64,000 nt of DNA from NCBI GenBank assembly GCA_003999685.1, contig CP021224.1, forward strand, positions 248,001-312,000, written 5' to 3'. The notes below the pieces were generated by a model. That model searched no databases. It had not been told where the DNA came from and saw nothing but the letters and a program-made list of their open reading frames with translations. This DNA is from Taiwanofungus camphoratus. Its lineage: Eukaryota; Basidiomycota; Agaricomycetes; Polyporales; Taiwanofungaceae. Both the position numbers and the translations under genes were made by a program. This document shows positions 29,201 through 39,678 of the stretch, piece by piece; position 1 is the first letter of the stretch, and every line of letters begins with the position of its first letter.

Positions 29201-30838
29201 GATGCAGTTGTAACCCCCCGAGCAACCACACCCAAGAAGCGATGGGAGGATGGATGTTCCCTAAGCGAAAGTGAAAGGAAGTACCATTGAGACAACAATC
29301 TCTGCTTCTACTGCCACAACAGAGGACACTCAAGCTGTGAATGTTGAAAGAAGGCAGCCAAGCAAGGCCAATCAAGCTCTCCAAGAGTCACTGATACACG
29401 ACCTGTAGGAGACTACCGTTCCTACATCAAGACCCTTTCTGCAGATGAGAAGAGGGCGATGTTGGAAGAATTGGTCACTGAGGATTTTTAAAGGGGCAGG
29501 GTGAGCCGACGCAACCACTGTCTGTTTCCGTTTCACTGTCCCGAGTTGTATTAGTAGTCCAGAATGAAAGAGCCCTTCACATTCCGATCACTGTGGGACG
29601 AAAAGACGTCGAAGCACGCACCTTCATTGATAGCAGCGCCTTGAGAATATTTGTACATTCACAATCTGTTAGAGAACACAACATTCAGACGGAACCACTC
29701 CCACGCTCCATGCCCATATTCAATGTGGATGGCACTGCAAACAAACAAGCACTCATAACAAAACGAGCCCTGATCTCGTACAAAATCAGAGGGGAACCCC
29801 AATTTGTCAAAGCCTATGTAGCCAGCATAGGAAATGAAGATGTCATCTTCGGACACACCTGGCTCAAACTGGAGAACCCCAACATCGATTGGAAGTCAGG
29901 CCGAGTAGAACTGAAGCATCAGATGACCCTAGAAGAATCGAGGGAATGGAAGAAAGGCCTCCTTGCTGCCAGGGAAGCACATCTCAAGCTGAAAAGGCTG
30001 CTCATTGAGACTACTGCTAAAACCCCTCTCAAACTGAAAGCCCCTCGACCCACTATCGAGGAAGTAGAAGATGAAGGAGATGAAGAGGTCATCAATACCA
30101 TGTCCCCCATACTCCCTACCACGGAAACACCCAGGCAAACAGTGCACCAACCCTCAACATCCTCAGAAATGAACCCGGAGGACCCCACCAACAAAGTCGC
30201 TCTGGAACGAGCTATGGAAACCATCAATGATGACAAACTGGTCATAGTGTTTATTGAAGGAGATGATTGGTTCACTGCTTACGAATGGGTTTCACACCCG
30301 GCCTATAGGGACACGCCCTTAATGGAAGCTAAGTACCCTTTTGATGGGGCATACAAACGCTTAAACAATGGTTTAATTTGAAAAGTCACCCACAACATAG
30401 GACAACTAACTACAGCAACAGAATTAACGGTAAAGGAACATGCAAAGAAGGAGGAGAAACCCGTTGAAGAACTAGTCCCTTCTTATCTTCATGATTTGCT
30501 ACCGATATTCGATAAGCACACAGCGGCACGGCTCCCTCAACACACAGAACATGACCACGAGATAAATCTCAAAGAGGAATACAAGGACTTTAAGCAATCC
30601 ACATGCTCCCTTAACCACGACCAACGGGTCGAAATGGACAAATTTCTAGAGGAAAACCTGCAGAAAGGATGCATATGCCCATCCAAATCACCTCTGGCAA
30701 GCCCTTTCTTTTTCGTTGAAAAGAAAGATGGCAGATACCAGCCCTGCCAGGACTACCACGAACTTAAAGATGGAACCATCAAGGACAGATATCCCCTACC
30801 TCTCATATCTGAACTACTGGAAAGGCTAAACAAGACGA
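26253..30838 (+). mobile_element. decayed Ty3/gypsy element, 5' LTR plus gag and partial pol
   Basis: The 5' LTR is of the LTR-3 family (26253-28086) and is interrupted by an LTR-4 insertion at 26316-27750. The gag region lies around 28290-29490 and ends with a CCHC knuckle, CFYCHNRGHSSCEC. The pol region follows from about 29540, with an aspartic-protease-like domain and the N-terminal part of reverse transcriptase ([19 protein letters not shown]). The element is cut at 30838 by an LTR-1 insertion, and no 3' LTR is seen in the window. It is broken in several places and is a fossil. Confidence 0.88.
26316..27750 (+). mobile_element. solo LTR-4 copy inside the gypsy 5' LTR
   Basis: The insertion is about 1435 bp with ends TGACCTAGGG...GACCTATCA and splits the LTR-3 of the gypsy element. 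It shares blocks with LTR-1, for example GAGTAAGGGGCCAA and CAGGATCTT, so the two families are related. An imperfect GACCAAAAACCGAAGG-type repeat fills 27417-27500. A reverse fragment of the same family lies at 14467-14860. Confidence 0.75.
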
Positions 30839-31958: not shown

Positions 31959-32458
31959 TGTTACCGGGGGGTTCACCCTGATAATGCTGCAGAAGCTTGG
32001 AGCGGTGTGCAGCGAAGGGTCGAAGAGGAGCGACGGTGACGACAAGTCACGATCCTCGGTAGTCTTCAACTACAAGCCCTATGTAGTCGCGATAGTCTTT
32101 CACGGGCTTTTTGCGGTGCAAGGAGATGTGTGAAGACTAGCGTGTATTGGTACTAATGCGTAGTACACTTTAGGAAGGATGAACGAAGAGAATACGACTA
32201 GGGGAACCTCCAACAGTGGGACTCCCCTTTATACTGCCACCATCAGCCCTCAGGTATACTAGCAGCCCCCCAGAGACCGCATAAGGTGAGAGGAGTCAGC
32301 GGCCCGAAAGTACATAACTACCATGGCGTAGGCGGGGACGGTCGGCCCGTCAGTCAATCTGGGTAAATAAGGTGTGGAAGGGATGCCGCGCGTCCATGGT
32401 GTGACAAACAAAGGGAAAGAAAAAACGAACACGTCTCTGGTCCTATCCGACAGTAACA
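31959..32458 (-). repeat. 3' LTR of the chromodomain gypsy element (LTR-5)
   Basis: This is a 500-bp LTR with a terminal 9-bp palindrome in this family, TTACCAGGG...CCCTGGTAA. The polypurine tract adjoins its inner side. Confidence 0.9.
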
Positions 32459-32499
32459 CTACCCCCGTCTCCTCTCAGGTGTCGCCCCGACACCTACCT

Positions 32500-33306
32500 T
32501 CATGACCTGGTAGCTTCCTCGTCAGGCTGCTTCGACCCACTGATTTCCGACCAGGCGGCCCCTGCCTTGGGGCATTGGTCGGTGTCGTGATCGTCAGCGA
32601 AACAATCCAGACAGCGAGGCGGGACGAAGGGCTCAACAGCCGGCTCCCCCAGTCGTGGCCGGTGGATGCAATCAGCAGCAACGTGATCGAGGCCCATGCA
32701 GAATTCACAGGCCCCAGCCCATCGGTCCAGGGGGCGGCACTCGGGGTGGAGACAAACTGTCCACTCGTCCTGCGTGGAGGGGGCTGGGCGCGTGATGACG
32801 GAGGAGGGTGGTAGGAGATGCTCGAGGGCGGAGACGACGTCGGTGCGAAGGAGGAAATTCAGATGGGAGCACGTAGCATTACAGGCCTGCCAGTACGATA
32901 TACCAATTTCCCGGATGGGGCTGGCCCACCATTTGGCTTCGTCATGCTCTCCCTTCTCCCTCTCCCCTCTGTACCCCCTTATTACCTGATCGAGGTGTAA
33001 GACGACCTCGGCCTGATGTCGAAAAATGGCAACCTGGGCCGCAAGATCGGGCCAGACAACGAGGGCGGTGTCCACCGCCGGGCGTAGTCGTTCGTTGGCC
33101 AGCACCCATCCGAGACGGTCGGCGGGGGTCAGAAAGTCGGCGGCGAGGCCAGATGTTGCTTGGCGAGGTAGGGGGACGACAATCCCCTCGGCGAAGTTGG
33201 GGAGGTTCTGCGGTCCCTGAAGAAAGGGATTCAGTGTGCGGGCATTCCCTGCGGTGAGGATGGAGGCGGCAAGGCGGGCTCGGGCGGCGTTGGTTCGATG
33301 GGACAT
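32500..33306 (-). CDS. third reading frame after pol, with two CCHC zinc knuckles (gypsy element)
   Basis: This frame encodes 268 residues beginning MSHRTNAARARLAASI in a good ACCATG context. It overlaps the 3' end of pol in a different frame by about 365 bp. The C-terminal part carries two exact CX2CX4HX4C knuckles, CEFCMGLDHVAADC and CLDCFADDHDTDQC. Its N-terminal two thirds are helical and contain WASPIREIGISYWQACNATC. This composition is gag- or nucleocapsid-like, but the position after pol is not that of a normal gag. It is probably an accessory nucleic-acid-binding protein of the element; its function is unknown. Confidence 0.75.
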   Translation of the reverse strand: MSHRTNAARARLAASILTAGNARTLNPFLQGPQNLPNFAEGIVVPLPRQATSGLAADFLTPADRLGWVLANERLRPAVDTALVVWPDLAAQVAIFRHQAEVVLHLDQVIRGYRGEREKGEHDEAKWWASPIREIGISYWQACNATCSHLNFLLRTDVVSALEHLLPPSSVITRPAPSTQDEWTVCLHPECRPLDRWAGACEFCMGLDHVAADCIHRPRLGEPAVEPFVPPRCLDCFADDHDTDQCPKAGAAWSEISGSKQPDEEATRS

Positions 33307-36300
33307 GGTGGGAGGCGGCTTTGAAGTGCTGCGGAATGGCTCCTTGCAGGGCAGTTGAACGGTTGTCGACTGGGTTGATGCCTAGGTGGTTTGCCTTCTT
33401 ATAACGCCTCAGCAGGTCAGGGGAATGCCGTAGATCATCTTCCTTCTGCCAGGTGCTGGCAGAGACCGGCCATCCCTTCCATTTGATGAGAAACTCCCAT
33501 TTCCCACGTCGGGCACGATGCCCACGGAGGGCCTCGACTTCGTACTCTTCTTCCCCCTCGACCAGATCAGGTGGTGGTTTCAGAAAGTTGGGTCCGTGTT
33601 CCGCTGTTTCCCTGTATGGGGTGAGCAGCGATGCATGGAACACCGGGTGAATCTTCCAGGTTCTCGGGAGCTGTAGCTTGTACGTCAGTGGCCCCTTGAC
33701 TTCCGTGATCTTGAAGGGTCCAAGCCGCTTTGGGTCAAATTTCCGACTTATTGTCCTTAGCCGGAGGTTCGTGGCTTCTAGCCAAACCTTGTCGCCTTCC
33801 TGGAAAGGTTTCCAGGGAAAAGGGGTTCGTTCCTCCATCAGCTTCTGGGCTAGCTCTTGCGCTGCAAGAGCCTCTTTGCGGGATTCGGAGATCTGGGTCA
33901 GGCGGTCTTGGAGCGTGGGGTATTTGTTGGAGGGTCGTGGAGATCCGATGGCCTTCGGGTCGTACCCCATGGTGAGCTTGAATGGCGATTCCTTCCTTCC
34001 AGCATGCGGCACCTGGTTGTGTGCGAATTCGAACTCGGGGATGTGTTTGACCCAGGTGTGGGGGTCATTTGCGCATAGGATTCTCCAGGCCGCCTCCAGT
34101 TCCTGGTTGACCCGTTCTGTACTCCCATCTGATTGGGGGTGGTAGGCAGTGGACATTGCCGCCTTGACTCCTGTCAGCTTACACCATTCTCGAAATGCAG
34201 CCGCTGCGAACTGTGGTCCTCGGTCGGATATCATCCGGTCAGGTAGGCCATATCGCCTGTATACATTGAGGTGTAGGGCCTCTGCCGTCCCTACCGCATC
34301 TATGTTCTTGGTGCAGGGTATGAGCACAATGCCCTTGGTGAGTTCTCTGTCAACCACTACCATGAGCGCATTGAAGCCCTGTGACTCTGGTAGGTCAGTG
34401 ATGAAGTCTACTGATATGTGCGAGAATGGCCTTGAGTTCGGCTCTGTGGGGATGGCCATCAGGGGGGGTTTCGTTGGGTGTGTGTTGATCTTGCTCTCCT
34501 GGCATTTGGCGCACCCCTCAACATATTTCTCGATGAATGAAGACATTCCATGCCAGAACCAGTCCCTTCGGGCGATGGCCATTGTACCTTGTGCCCCTGG
34601 GTGTGCCATTGCTGGTGTGTCATGACAGAGTTGAATGACTTCTCGGCGCAGATCATCATCAGGGGGTACGTAAACTCTGTTTTTGTATAAAATTAGTCCC
34701 TCCTGAATGTCCCAGTCTGCCAGCTTTGTGTGCGCAAAGCCTGTGCCCTTGAATGGCGGTACCCTCCCCCATTTTAAAGCGTCAATCGTCTCGATGACCA
34801 TCCTGTCACGGGTACGACATTCACATATCTTTTCGATGATTGCAGTGTTGGTGGCGTTGACAAAGAGGTCTGTTGGTAACAGGATGACATCTTCGTTGTC
34901 ATGTTTCCCTCCTGGGTGGTCAGGTCGCCGGGAGAGTGCATCGGCGACTATGAGTCGACTGCCTTTTTTGTTTAATAGTTGCAGGTCAAATTGTGACAGG
35001 AATAACTGCCATCGGGCCTGGCGTCGGTTGAGTCGTTGTGCTTCTCGGAAATAGGTGAGGTTCTTGTGGTCGGTGATCACCGTGACCGGATGTCCACTTC
35101 CCTCAAGGTGGTGGCGCCATTCCTCAAGTGCTCAGACAATGGCCAGCAGCTCTCTGTCATATACTTGATAATTCCGCTCCGCTTCTTTCAGGCTCTTCGA
35201 GAGGAAGGCTATAGGGTGTAGCCGCCCTTCTTCATCAAGTTGTTGAAGCACTGCACCAGTGGCTACCAGAGAGGCGTCGGCCTCAATGGTGAATGGTTTG
35301 GACGGGTCGGGCATGCAAAGGATAGGCATGCTCTGGAAACACCGTTTGAGCTCGTCAAAGGCCTCCTGGCAGGCTTTGGTCCAGTTCCACTCCGCGCGTT
35401 TCTTCTTGATGACATTCAAGGGGTGAGCGATGTGGGAGAAGTTGTGGATGAAGCGTCGGTAGTAGTTGGCGAGACCCATGAATCGTTCCACATCCTTGAC
35501 CCTAGTAGGAATGGGCCAATCTGCGATTCCTGCCAGTTTGTCCTTGTCCATGTGCACCTGTCCAGGTGAGATGGTCATTCCCAAGAAGTCAACTTCGACG
35601 ACATCGAATGCGCATTTCTCTGGCTTTACAAATAGATCCCATTCCTGCAGCCGTTGTAGGACGCGTCTGGTTCGTTCTCGGTGGGCTTCCATATTGTCGG
35701 AGAAAATGAGGATGTCGTCCATATAGATCGCGATCCACCCCTCGGCCAGCATGTCCTGGAACGCGTCATTCATCATTCGCTGAAATGTGGCCGGCGAGTT
35801 GCACATCCCAAAGAACATGACAGTGGGTTCGACGATCTTGTCCTGATTCCCATGTTTGACCATGAATGCTCCTTTCCATTGATCACCCTCTCTGATCCGG
35901 ACGTTGTTGTACCCGTTTCGGAGGTCTAATTTAGTGAACACAGTGGCCCTTTGGAGCCTGTCGATTAGCTCTCCTATGAGGGGTAAGGGGTAGGCATCTT
36001 TGATCGTGCCCTTGTTCAGGTATCGGTAGTCCTGGCACGGGCGCAAGGTACCATCCTTTTTTTTGACAAAAAAGGCTGGTGACGCCATTGGTGAGTTCGA
36101 TTCTCGGAGATAGCCCTTGGCCAGGTTTTCTTCCAAAAATTTGTCCATCGCTGCCTGTTCATTTGGAGACAAAGGAATTACGGCGCATTTTCTGGGGACA
36201 AAGTCTGGCCTTAATTCGATGGCATGGTCCCAGGGCTTGGATTCTGGGAACCGGTTGGCAGCCTCCTTTTCGAACAACCGTTTATAGTCCCACAGGTATT

Positions 36301-37060
36301 CTGGGACAAGGTCTTTTACGGATGGGGGTGGGTCCTTGGGGATCACCAATTCCGTGAGCTCTGGGACATCCCATACCATACGTGGGGAGTCAGAGAAGCG
36401 TGTTAGTCGATTGAGCCCTAGTTGTGTGGGCTTTAGGGCCTGCAGTAGCCCGTCTTCACGTATGAGCGGCTGCCCTTTCTGTTGGAAGATCCCCAGAACC
36501 CCTTCTCCTTGTGTGTAAGCACACATTATGTCCGAAAGCTCCTCATCGTCTTCATGAATGGAAGCTCGACACAGGGGAATTCCGTCTGTCGTGGGTTGGC
36601 TCATGATCCAGGCATAGTATCCTTGCCATTCTGTGAGTCGAGCTTGGTCAATCTCGAGCGTTCCTTCTACCCAGTCGATGCGTGGGTTGACTTGTGCGAG
36701 CCAGGGGTTGCCGAGTACTACATCGAGCGTTCCAATGTTTGAGACATAAAAGTTGGTTGGGATGTCATTCCCCTCTAATCGTATACTCCCTTCGACTCTG
36801 TGGGTAATTGGTCCCCCTTTGTTTGTAGAGCCATCAATGGTGGTTGAGGTTACTGTCCTGGGAAGCGGTCGAGTGGGGAGTCCCCACTTCCTTACAAAGT
36901 CGGGGTGAATTAGGTTGGCGTCAGCCCCACTATCCAACAAGGGGCATACGGCGACGGCTTTCTCTCCTACTACGATGTAACCTGGTAGATAAAGTGTATT
37001 GCGCTTGCGCGTTCCGGTAATTACATTTCGTACAGAGAGTTTAGGCGACTTGTGCATCAC
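32942..37060 (-). other. pol region of the chromodomain gypsy element
   Basis: The domain order on the minus strand is aspartic protease (PLLDSGADANLIHPDF), reverse transcriptase (SPAFFVKKKDGTLRPCQDYR, and the active-site word AIYMDDILIF), RNase H, and integrase with a HHCC-type zinc domain (HPGAQGT...CAKCQESK) and the core FITDLPESQGFNALMVVVDR. A C-terminal chromodomain follows (EEEYEVEALRGHRA, then EFLIKWKGWPVSASTW). This order and the chromodomain place it in the chromovirus branch of Ty3/gypsy, whose members target heterochromatin. The region is close to whole. Confidence 0.92.
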
Positions 37061-37071
37061 GTCGGGTCGCC

Positions 37072-38283
37072 TTACAGAAAATCCGCAAAGTCGTGGTGCT
37101 GAGAGAAGTGGGGGAATCTGACTCCTTTCATTTCTTGCCCCTGCTCCTCCTGTTCAGAGGCTTCATCATCCGCCTCGTTTTCATCTTTCATGTTGGCCCT
37201 TCGGTTTGGGGGTCCTGTTCCCCGACCTGAGGTTCGCTCTGGGCAGTCTTTGGCCAGGTGCCCCTTATTGTGGCATTTGTAGCAGGAGCCCGTCCTTCGG
37301 TCTTGCAAGCGCTGATGGTCTGGCTTCCCACTGTCAAATGCCCTTGCTGTGACTCGTGGAGGGGTTTTTGAAGTTCTTTGAGCGGCATCGATGGCCTTGT
37401 TGTTTCGATAGGCCCGGTCCCGTTGGGCAGCAGCTTCCTTCCATCCTTCTAGGGTTGTGGGGGCTACATCTCGTTCCATGATTCGGACTCGCATGGTGCT
37501 GGGTAGTTTTTCTCGGTACCAGGCCATAAGGGCACTTTCTTCGGTGATTTCTGCCCTGCGGGCCAGTCGGTCGAACTCCTCATTGAAATCGGCAATAGGT
37601 TTGTCGTAGGTGTAGACCAAGTTCCGTAGTCCGATGGCTGCAGAGACCTCCTCCTCTATTATCCCGAACCTTTTGATGAACTCGAGCGCGACATTCCTGA
37701 AAGTGCCGTACCCCCGGCTCACTCCTCGGATGAGGGGGTGGGGTTTGAGTGCCTTTTCGGTAAGAGTATCGGCCCAAGCACCAGCATGGCCTTCGAGGTG
37801 GCCAAGGAAATTGCCGACCTTTTCTCGTTCAGAAGCAGAGGCCCATCGCTCGGTGTCGAATCTTCGGGCAAATTGGATGAGGAAGTGTCGGGCATCTTCT
37901 CGTTTTCCAGAGAACTTAGTAATTTCTGGCTCTTTTCGGTCTGGTACCCGTGCAGCTCCCTGTGGGAGGGGCGTTCCTCCAGAAGGCTGCCCCCCTCCAG
38001 GAGGTCCTCCCCCGGGGGGTCCTCCTCCCCCAGGTGGTCCTCCTCTACCGGGTAGTCCTCCTCCACCGGGCACTCCTCCGCCAGGTGGTCCTCCTCCACC
38101 AGGTGGTCCTCCTGGGGGTCCTCCGCTCTCATCATAAGGTGGCCCTCCCTCGAGGGGGCCTTCTTCCCCCAGCCCATCATCAGGAGGTGGCCCTGATTCC
38201 CCTATTCCTGATCGGAAAGAGCTCAAGCCACGGGGCGTTTCCGGGGTGGAAGGGGATGTTTTTCCTGTCCCTTCAGTCTCCAT
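37072..38283 (-). CDS. gag of the chromodomain gypsy element
   Basis: This frame encodes 403 residues. An N-terminal Gly/Pro-rich repeat tract (GGPPGGGGPPGG type, about residues 30-100) precedes the capsid-like domain (KFSGKREDARHFLIQFARRF near residue 118), as in gypsy Gag. A CCHC knuckle, CYKCHNKGHLAKDC, lies near residue 330. The acidic tail is DENEADDEASEQEEQGQEM. Confidence 0.88.
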   Translation of the reverse strand: METEGTGKTSPSTPETPRGLSSFRSGIGESGPPPDDGLGEEGPLEGGPPYDESGGPPGGPPGGGGPPGGGVPGGGGLPGRGGPPGGGGPPGGGPPGGGQPSGGTPLPQGAARVPDRKEPEITKFSGKREDARHFLIQFARRFDTERWASASEREKVGNFLGHLEGHAGAWADTLTEKALKPHPLIRGVSRGYGTFRNVALEFIKRFGIIEEEVSAAIGLRNLVYTYDKPIADFNEEFDRLARRAEITEESALMAWYREKLPSTMRVRIMERDVAPTTLEGWKEAAAQRDRAYRNNKAIDAAQRTSKTPPRVTARAFDSGKPDHQRLQDRRTGSCYKCHNKGHLAKDCPERTSGRGTGPPNRRANMKDENEADDEASEQEEQGQEMKGVRFPHFSQHHDFADFL

Positions 38284-38485
38284 TTGTTGTTCTGTCCGTT
38301 CAATGTCAGGATCGGTCAGTTCTGAGCTGGAGCCTTCGTCAGAGGGTGGGTCGGTTTCGTCAAAGGTTGTCCAGCGGGCCTGGATGAGGGCACGATTGGT
38401 TGGAGTACAAGGTTCGAAATCACTTCCCCTGTAGAGTGCAGAGTCGTAGCGGTGAGGGCACGGTTGCGTTGAGCAGACCCTCCAG

Positions 38486-39049
38486 TTAGAAGTCTTCGTG
38501 TAATGTCGGTGTACGTCCCGATTGTTCTCCGCTTGATAACAATGAGCCTTCCCGGCGCACGTCAGGGTCGACCTCCGCCTCGTTTTGGAGGATGGATCCA
38601 GCTTGCCACCGGCGATAGAAATCTCGGGCGCTCAGTAGCCTTTGATATAGGTTCACGATTATGGGAACGGCCAACTGAAATGAGAAATGTGGGTTTGAGA
38701 GCACCTTCTGAGCAGTGAGGATACGGTGGTCAAGGACTTCGTCAAAATCTTCAGAGGGAGTGGGAGGTAGAGGTCGGCTCCCTTCTCTACTTGCCAGCCT
38801 GTCGTGATTTTCTAATACAGCTTGCCAAGCGTCGCTGGCTCTGGAGATGTGGGAGCGGGTGTAAAGAATCAGCTCCCTCTGTTCAGCTGGGAGGAAACTG
38901 GTGGAACTATCGGCGTGGAGAATGGCTCTGAGGTTGCACTCAGCTCGATCCAGGACCTCTTCTAAAGTTGGGAGAGTAGGGTCAAACGCTGCGTGATCCA
39001 GCTCTTCTTCTTGTTCGTAGTTGATATCAAAAGATCGTTGATAATCCAT
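38486..39049 (-). CDS. extra reading frame upstream of gag (gypsy element)
   Basis: This frame encodes 187 residues starting MDYQRSFDINYEQEEELDHA. It is acidic and helical with no zinc knuckle. It sits between the 5' LTR and gag, on the same strand. It may be a separate protein or an N-terminal part of the Gag precursor reached by the element's own expression strategy. I do not recognise a family. Confidence 0.6.
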   Translation of the reverse strand: MDYQRSFDINYEQEEELDHAAFDPTLPTLEEVLDRAECNLRAILHADSSTSFLPAEQRELILYTRSHISRASDAWQAVLENHDRLASREGSRPLPPTPSEDFDEVLDHRILTAQKVLSNPHFSFQLAVPIIVNLYQRLLSARDFYRRWQAGSILQNEAEVDPDVRREGSLLSSGEQSGRTPTLHEDF

Positions 39050-39178
39050 GGTGATCAGTACTAATCCTATGAGTACGCTGACCTCGCCTTCTTCGAGACC
39101 GATACGGGTCTTTTAGGCACTGTCTTCTTGTGACCTCTCGAACCTGGACGGGTTCGGGTTTGTGGAGTCGTATTCTAG

Positions 39179-39678
39179 TGTTACCAGGGGGTTCACCCTG
39201 GTAATGCTGCAGAAGCTTGGAGCGGTGTGCAGCGAAGGGTCGAAGAGGAGCGGCGGTGACGACGAGTCACGATCCTCGGTAGTCTTCAACTACAAGCCCT
39301 ATGTAGTCACGATAGTCTTTACGGGCTTCTTGAGGTGCGAGAAGATGTGTGAAGACTAGCGTGTATTGGTACTAATGCGTAGTACACTTTAGGAAAGGAT
39401 GAACGAAGAGAATACGACTAGGGGAACCTCCAACAGTGGGACCCCCCTTTATACTGCCACCGCCAACCCCCAGGTATACTAGCAGCCCCCCAGAGACCAC
39501 ATAAGGTGAGAGGAGTCAGCGGCCCGAAAGTACATAACTACCATGGCGTAAGCGGGGACGGTCGGCCCGTCAGTCAATCTGGGTAAGTAAGGTGTGGAAG
39601 GGATGCCGCGCGTCCATGGTGTGACAAACAGAGGGAAAGAAAAAACGAACACGTCTCTAGTCCTACCCGACAGTAACA
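39179..39678 (-). repeat. 5' LTR of the chromodomain gypsy element (LTR-5)
   Basis: This is a 500-bp LTR, about 96% identical by eye to 31959-32458. It is followed on its outer side by LTR-2 sequence. Confidence 0.9.

Follow-up and report, generated by a model that had tools for sequence, protein, structure and literature searches.

A selected zinc-knuckle gene downstream of pol in chromoviruses of the fungus Taiwanofungus camphoratus

A chromovirus with a third open reading frame

The window, that is, the whole 64,000-nt stretch of contig CP021224.1 analyzed here, derives from the 33.2-Mb, 15-contig genome of T. camphoratus and carries on its minus strand a chromovirus copy flanked by paired long terminal repeats (LTRs) (Table 1). 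Five hydrophobin matches in the genome exceed the family cut-off and, hydrophobins being fungal proteins, point to a filamentous fungus. Between the LTRs, protease, reverse transcriptase (RT), RNase H, and integrase are followed by a chromodomain, the arrangement that defines Ty3/Gypsy chromoviruses, and the Pol region produced matches to RVT_1, RNase H, rve, SH3_Tf2-1, and Chromo. In the window copy, pol is broken between the RNase H and integrase parts, and intact pol is present elsewhere in the genome, in copies with a frame of 1403 codons. Gag has a zinc knuckle of its own, as an earlier note on this DNA had recorded. The leader frame ORF0 matched 80 genome rows, most of the near-full ones aligning from residue 2; its start codon is thus uncertain, and translation may begin without the ATG or join Gag in some way.

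Table 1. Features of the chromovirus copy and its third open reading frame (positions are those of the window)
Feature	Position	Strand	Remarks
Chromovirus copy, LTR to LTR	31959..39678	minus	ends TGTTAC...GTAACA
5' LTR, 500 nt	39179..39678	minus	paired with 3' LTR
ORF0 (leader ORF), 187 aa + stop	38483..39049	minus	upstream of gag, after 5' LTR
Gag, 403 aa	37072..38283	minus	Retrotrans_gag, 24.0 bits against a cut-off of 24.1; one knuckle
Gag knuckle	about 37246-37287	minus	CYKCHNKGHLAKDC, within Gag
Pol part 1 (protease, RT, RNase H)	35132..37057	minus	stop-terminated in the window copy
Pol part 2 (integrase, chromodomain at 33395-33544, C-terminal tail over ORF3)	32942..34801	minus	
ORF3, 268 aa + stop	32500..33306	minus	begins with ATG; 33306-32503 without stop
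ORF3 knuckle 1	32668..32709	minus	CEFCMGLDHVAADC, ORF3 residues 200-213
ORF3 knuckle 2	32572..32613	minus	CLDCFADDHDTDQC, ORF3 residues 232-245
Polypurine tract	32459..32475	minus	directly before 3' LTR, read by eye
3' LTR, 500 nt	31959..32458	minus	95.4% identical to 5' LTR

The feature of interest, ORF3, is located between the chromodomain and the 3' LTR. The earlier note described it as a 268-residue frame that overlaps pol and ends with two exact CX2CX4HX4C knuckles, and each of these points holds: the ATG-initiated frame is real and runs on the minus strand (on the plus strand, no open frame is read at the same coordinates), it shares 365 nt with the second pol frame and extends over 439 nt outside pol, and both knuckles have the exact spacing and lie near the protein end. 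Among 200,000 residue shuffles of the window protein, none contained two knuckles and 76 contained at least one. The start context is CCCACCATGTCC in the window copy and CACCATGTCC in the ORF3 of family A, the family of the window element. The window protein is acidic (pI 5.6), and its comparison with Pfam yielded zero family matches, knuckle models included. An AlphaFold model built from the single sequence has a mean pLDDT of 40, too poor for judgement of the fold.

Two further observations concern the surroundings of ORF3. A perfect 7-bp inverted repeat, GGTGTCG-GGG-CGACACC (32478-32494, minus strand), lies between the ORF3 stop and the polypurine tract; similar inverted repeats occupy the same place at loci L039 and L040, and in the two inspected copies of another family, B (see below), no inverted repeat was seen and the ORF3 stop abuts the polypurine tract. 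At 29710-30381 on the plus strand, a 223-aa ORF resembles, by eye, the protease region of another retroelement and has no match in Pfam.

Purifying selection on ORF3 in family A

A search of the genome with the family A ORF3 protein returned 129 rows, including 57 near-full-length family A rows at 60% identity or more, 33 of which are without a stop; the stops in the remaining near-full rows are mostly TGA. In the best-scoring 30 family A copies, which were fetched for analysis, the frame is intact in 27, and the ATG and both knuckles are retained in all 30. Selection was assessed in 27 of the 30, the other three being dropped because their upstream flank is a different sequence. Variable sites were sorted into those found in a single copy (singletons) and those common to several copies (shared), with real single copies as the reference, and multi-allelic sites were excluded from the counts (3 in family A, 65 in C, 4 in D, and 0 in B). 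The loci compared for A, B, and C are those with the highest scores, and those for D come from rows free of stops over the matched part, so that stops and possibly amino acid changes are under-counted.

At the 34 shared sites of family A ORF3, 26 variants are synonymous, 7 change an amino acid, and 1 introduces a stop, compared with 11.7 synonymous and 22.3 changing variants expected for the same mutation types. The corresponding omega-like ratio of 0.16 (p 6.6e-7) is close to that of the integrase part (0.15). Where ORF3 and pol overlap, the ratio is 0.17 in the ORF3 frame and 5.4 in the pol frame, indicating that the tail of pol is free to vary and ORF3 is constrained; in the part of ORF3 outside pol, the ratio is 0.15, against 4.3 and 2.4 in the two other frames. 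Singletons are themselves partly constrained (0.40 in A, 0.42 in C, and 0.33 in B), and the difference between shared and singleton sites in family A is not significant (Fisher p 0.073). In comparisons of family A with two of its more divergent members, L039 and L040, the proteins of which are 65-71% identical to it depending on the method, the dN/dS of ORF3 is 0.16-0.17, an approximate value given that dS exceeds 1.

ORF3 is a recurrent gene of the chromoviruses of this genome

About 50 of the weaker rows in the family A search, at around 25% identity, represent a second chromovirus family, B, and two more families, C and D, carry a knuckle ORF as well. The family B protein (251 aa) is encoded at the same position and has one knuckle; of the 42 rows that reach 89% identity, 29 contain no stop, and the shared sites of 13 copies, one of them (L044) N-padded upstream in the alignment, comprise 15 synonymous and 2 changing variants (15/17, p 1.7e-6; ratio 0.06). 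In an eight-row alignment of families A and B, all four ligands of knuckle 1 are invariant and knuckle 2 is missing from the B rows. The family C protein is much longer (469 aa), with two knuckles, the second spaced CX2CX6HX4C, followed by a further tail of about 180 residues. No stop interrupts 23 of its 37 full-span rows, and in 9 of 10 copies, the tenth being left out for its length, 159 of 211 shared sites are synonymous and 52 changing (p 1.7e-39), with 23 synonymous and no other shared variants in the knuckle region. Shared and singleton sites differ in this family (p 7.7e-6); the comparison with its pol part was dropped, since indels shift the upstream register (325 multi-allelic sites). 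Family D encodes the shortest protein, 84 aa, of which two knuckles and their spacer make up 34 residues; among the 78 rows that reach 59% identity, 64 are without a stop, and the shared sites of 15 copies divide into 14 synonymous and 6 changing (14/20, p 0.0011). The other two reading frames show the opposite pattern in A (ORF3-only part), B, and C, and in D one is opposite and one near neutral. Purifying selection across copies, which the earlier note had proposed to look for, is thus evident in all four families of this genome.

The integrases of A and B are 81% identical, those of C and D 85-86%, and identity between the two pairs is only 45-51%, so that the ORF3 trait spans two deep lineages. 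ORF3 itself has diverged much further, to 25% identity between A and B. The relationship of the C and D proteins extends over 57-58 residues, with an identity of about 49%, and between A/B and C only the knuckle aligns (39 columns, probability 18%), homology beyond it not being demonstrable. The knuckle is the feature common to ORF3 of all four families.

A second knuckle protein after pol, as the earlier note had it, is therefore real, but it is no oddity of one element: among the best-scoring 150 of 271 chromodomain candidates, 148 have an ORF3 match that starts within 2 kb downstream, counting broken and partial copies and ORF3 rows on either strand, which makes the gene the rule among the chromoviruses of this genome. 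By family, these matches are distributed as A 4, B 33, C 44, and D 67, family A contributing few of them, probably owing to the lower score of its chromodomain. One of the two exceptions (L051) is, by inspection, a host gene, presumably a CHD1-like helicase, and the other is a hit with a stop. In viral contigs, 70 pattern stretches were obtained for ORF3 relatives and 13 for the integrase, none of which was confirmed.

These data bear directly on the simplest alternative, namely that the frame is accidental or a side effect of the pol sequence that it overlaps. The overlap itself speaks in favor of such an origin, but constraint is seen in the ORF3 frame and not in pol or the other frames, the stretch outside pol is constrained equally, and a knuckle ORF recurs in four families. 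With open copies, synonymous bias, and constraint confined to its own frame, a chance origin is ruled out, and we give this alternative practically no weight. Among the relatives in this genome, the frame is recurrent and selected, and neither absent nor randomly open, as it would have to be for the earlier note's proposal to be refuted.

Decayed copies provide two side observations. A stretch at 1474-1749 of locus L046, downstream of a D element, is related to the family C ORF3 (C4:1460528-1461169) and is perhaps what remains of an older element. The bias toward TGA among the stops of decayed A, B, C, and D copies may reflect host methylation or a RIP-like process, either of which it would fit.

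Evidence for separate initiation of ORF3

Families C and D have the ORF3 AUG 36-58 nt past the pol stop in 24 copies (9 of 10 in C, the tenth locus giving no reading of this relation, and 15 of 15 in D), and all three relative frames of ORF3 and pol are present within C and likewise within D. This variation in frame relation rules out a fixed frameshift or stop readthrough from pol in these two families. In A and B, the ORF3 AUG is inside the pol frame and ORF3 is +1 to pol in the copies read, an arrangement compatible, by itself, with a frameshift. Given the short gap, translation might reinitiate behind the pol stop in C and D. In A, A', and B, pol continues for 115 to 521 nt beyond the ORF3 AUG, and reinitiation is implausible. 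With regard to splicing, several copies have CAG triplets upstream of the ORF3 AUG, perhaps by chance. A subgenomic or spliced mRNA would perhaps be the simplest explanation common to all families. That ORF3 is a selected protein with a start of its own appears to us nearly certain from the copies compared.

A location between pol and the 3' LTR is also where env-bearing elements encode Env, and ORF3 might be an Env-like protein. Taking a hydropathy of 1.6 as the threshold for a membrane segment, only the A' protein (1.76) of the five exceeds it, the best 19-residue values being 1.42 in A, 1.37 in B, 0.87 in C, and 0.12 in D, with no clear membrane segment, and zinc knuckles are not known as a feature of Env. 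An Env-like function is accordingly most improbable.

Family B lacks a capsid region

Family B has no capsid part of Gag in either of the two copies read (L090 with L093; L097). In both, the gag-pol frame starts within about 200-300 nt of the 5' LTR and opens shortly before the Gag knuckle. More broadly, when the 8 kb upstream of each copy are considered, a same-strand match to the family A Gag accompanies 29 of 30 A copies but just 2 of 42 B copies. In both B exceptions, the remainder of the A Gag lies on the opposite side of the B element; in these two cases, the A Gag seems to have been split by insertion of B. As the B integrase is 81% identical to that of A, and C and D possess Gags, family B would have lost a capsid rather than never having had one.

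One way to account for this family is that ORF3 is a second Gag-like structural protein of the particles and replaces the missing capsid in B. As in Gag, an N-terminal part precedes the knuckles in A, B, and C, and B retains ORF3 while lacking the capsid region. The alignment of ORF3 with Gag is, however, limited to the knuckle, and the D protein, at 84 aa, does not have the length of a capsid, which weakens the case for capsid replacement in B as well. We consider a structural role of this kind improbable. Instead, the B capsid may be borrowed from other families, and ORF3 apparently is not. If B does use the shells of others, what remains its own is Pol, a knuckle, and ORF3, which is the behavior to be expected if ORF3 is an RNA-specific factor; against this, the B capsid may have been replaced by something unrecognised.

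A candidate RNA-binding cofactor

The best explanation of ORF3, which we hold with about even confidence, is that it is an element-specific RNA-binding cofactor that handles the RNA of the element beside the Gag knuckle. ORF3 is, on this reading, a genuine third chromovirus gene, the zinc-knuckle product of which is translated separately. The general ligand of CCHC knuckles is single-stranded nucleic acid, and the motif suggests that ORF3 binds it as well; its ligand could, more tentatively, be the genomic RNA of the element itself, in which case ORF3 would help with handling of the full-length RNA through packaging selection, chaperoning, or nuclear export. The knuckle looks like the working part of the protein, because it is common to the four families, is the least variable part of the C protein, and is present in D, which is without the N-terminal domain.

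The comparison with nucleocapsids is instructive in this regard. The best profile hits of ORF3 in the PDB, both weak, are nucleocapsid knuckles, those of NCp10 (1a6b and 1u6p; E 0.017 and 0.022), which have the same CX2CX4HX4C spacing and match over the knuckle; the family C profile found nothing in the PDB at E 0.1. Nucleocapsids are cut out of Gag and are typically not acidic, whereas ORF3 is a separate gene, its product is acidic in family A, and it has a long N-terminal part in A, B, and C. The label "second nucleocapsid-like" protein given by the earlier note thus stands as far as the knuckle goes and fails for the acidic protein as a whole, which is encoded by an ORF of its own and aligns with Gag at the knuckle only; we retain it as a working analogy. 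Charge is also an argument against an RNA cofactor, as the predicted pI is 5.6 in A and 5.1 in A' (7.9 in B, and 9.6 in C and 9.4 in D, both as basic as would suit a nucleocapsid), and so is the failure to demonstrate homology of A/B with C beyond the knuckle.

Zinc knuckles can also bind proteins, and ORF3 might instead counter host silencing (RNA interference or methylation) or regulate transcription from the LTR, with the knuckles binding small RNA or a host factor. Such a role would suit the acidity of the family A protein and the rapid divergence of ORF3 relative to integrase between A and B, as in arms races; the predominance of TGA among the stops of decayed copies fits C-to-T decay, from which it can be surmised that the host may modify these elements. 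Gag, however, diverges about equally (A and A' are 66-68% identical in Gag and 65-71% in ORF3), so that the speed of ORF3 evolution alone is not telling, and the feature that unites the four families is the knuckle, which in C varies less than any other part. We regard a silencing or regulatory function as unlikely, if worth keeping in mind.

An extension of the RNA-cofactor reading, which we put forward only tentatively, is a two-component system in which Gag provides a shell that can be shared between families and ORF3 provides element-specific RNA recognition that cannot. If so, family B, itself without a capsid, would subsist on shells made by other families owing to its own ORF3, and family D would demonstrate that a short protein with two knuckles suffices.

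Relation to known additional genes and implications

Additional sense ORFs between pol and the 3' LTR, termed aORF-3S, are known in LTR retrotransposons (PMC7264820) and resemble ORF3 in position, orientation, and presence in many copies per family; in that account, they are described as Env-like, some with transmembrane parts, whereas ORF3 encodes a zinc-knuckle protein with no clear membrane segment. A survey of Gypsy elements of fungi and a spikemoss, Agaricomycetes included, lists an "add. ORF" of unknown function (Figure 3 legend in Novikova et al. 2010, PMC2864245). The text on this ORF gives no knuckles, selection test, or function. The same survey reports one or two ORFs in the majority of full-length elements (PMC2864245), whereas here an extra ORF or its remains accompanies nearly all of the best chromodomain hits. 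The additional gene brtn of the fungal Gypsy elements Boty in Botrytis is, as described, antisense (PMC8365987, PMC7264820), unlike the sense-oriented ORF3. A functional analogy, and an analogy only, is CERV of the Caenorhabditis elegans element Cer1, which acts on genomic RNA (nuclear export) besides Gag and Pol; set beside ORF3 by its description, CERV is expressed from a spliced mRNA, and its abstract names no knuckle (PMC10309623). Our search of the open-licence PMC literature, mostly at the level of listings, found no paper in which fungal chromoviruses are described with a knuckle ORF downstream of pol. Extra ORFs in fungal Gypsy elements are thus already known, and the knuckle type seems to be new among them.

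Gag and Pol are commonly taken to be all that LTR retrotransposition needs (PMC7264820). If a whole group of fungal chromoviruses regularly carries a third gene under selection, the working parts of very common retroelements have been undercounted, and annotation restricted to Gag and Pol would leave genes of the ORF3 type unnamed. Family B, capsid-less and bearing ORF3, offers a natural way to test which functions one element can share with another.
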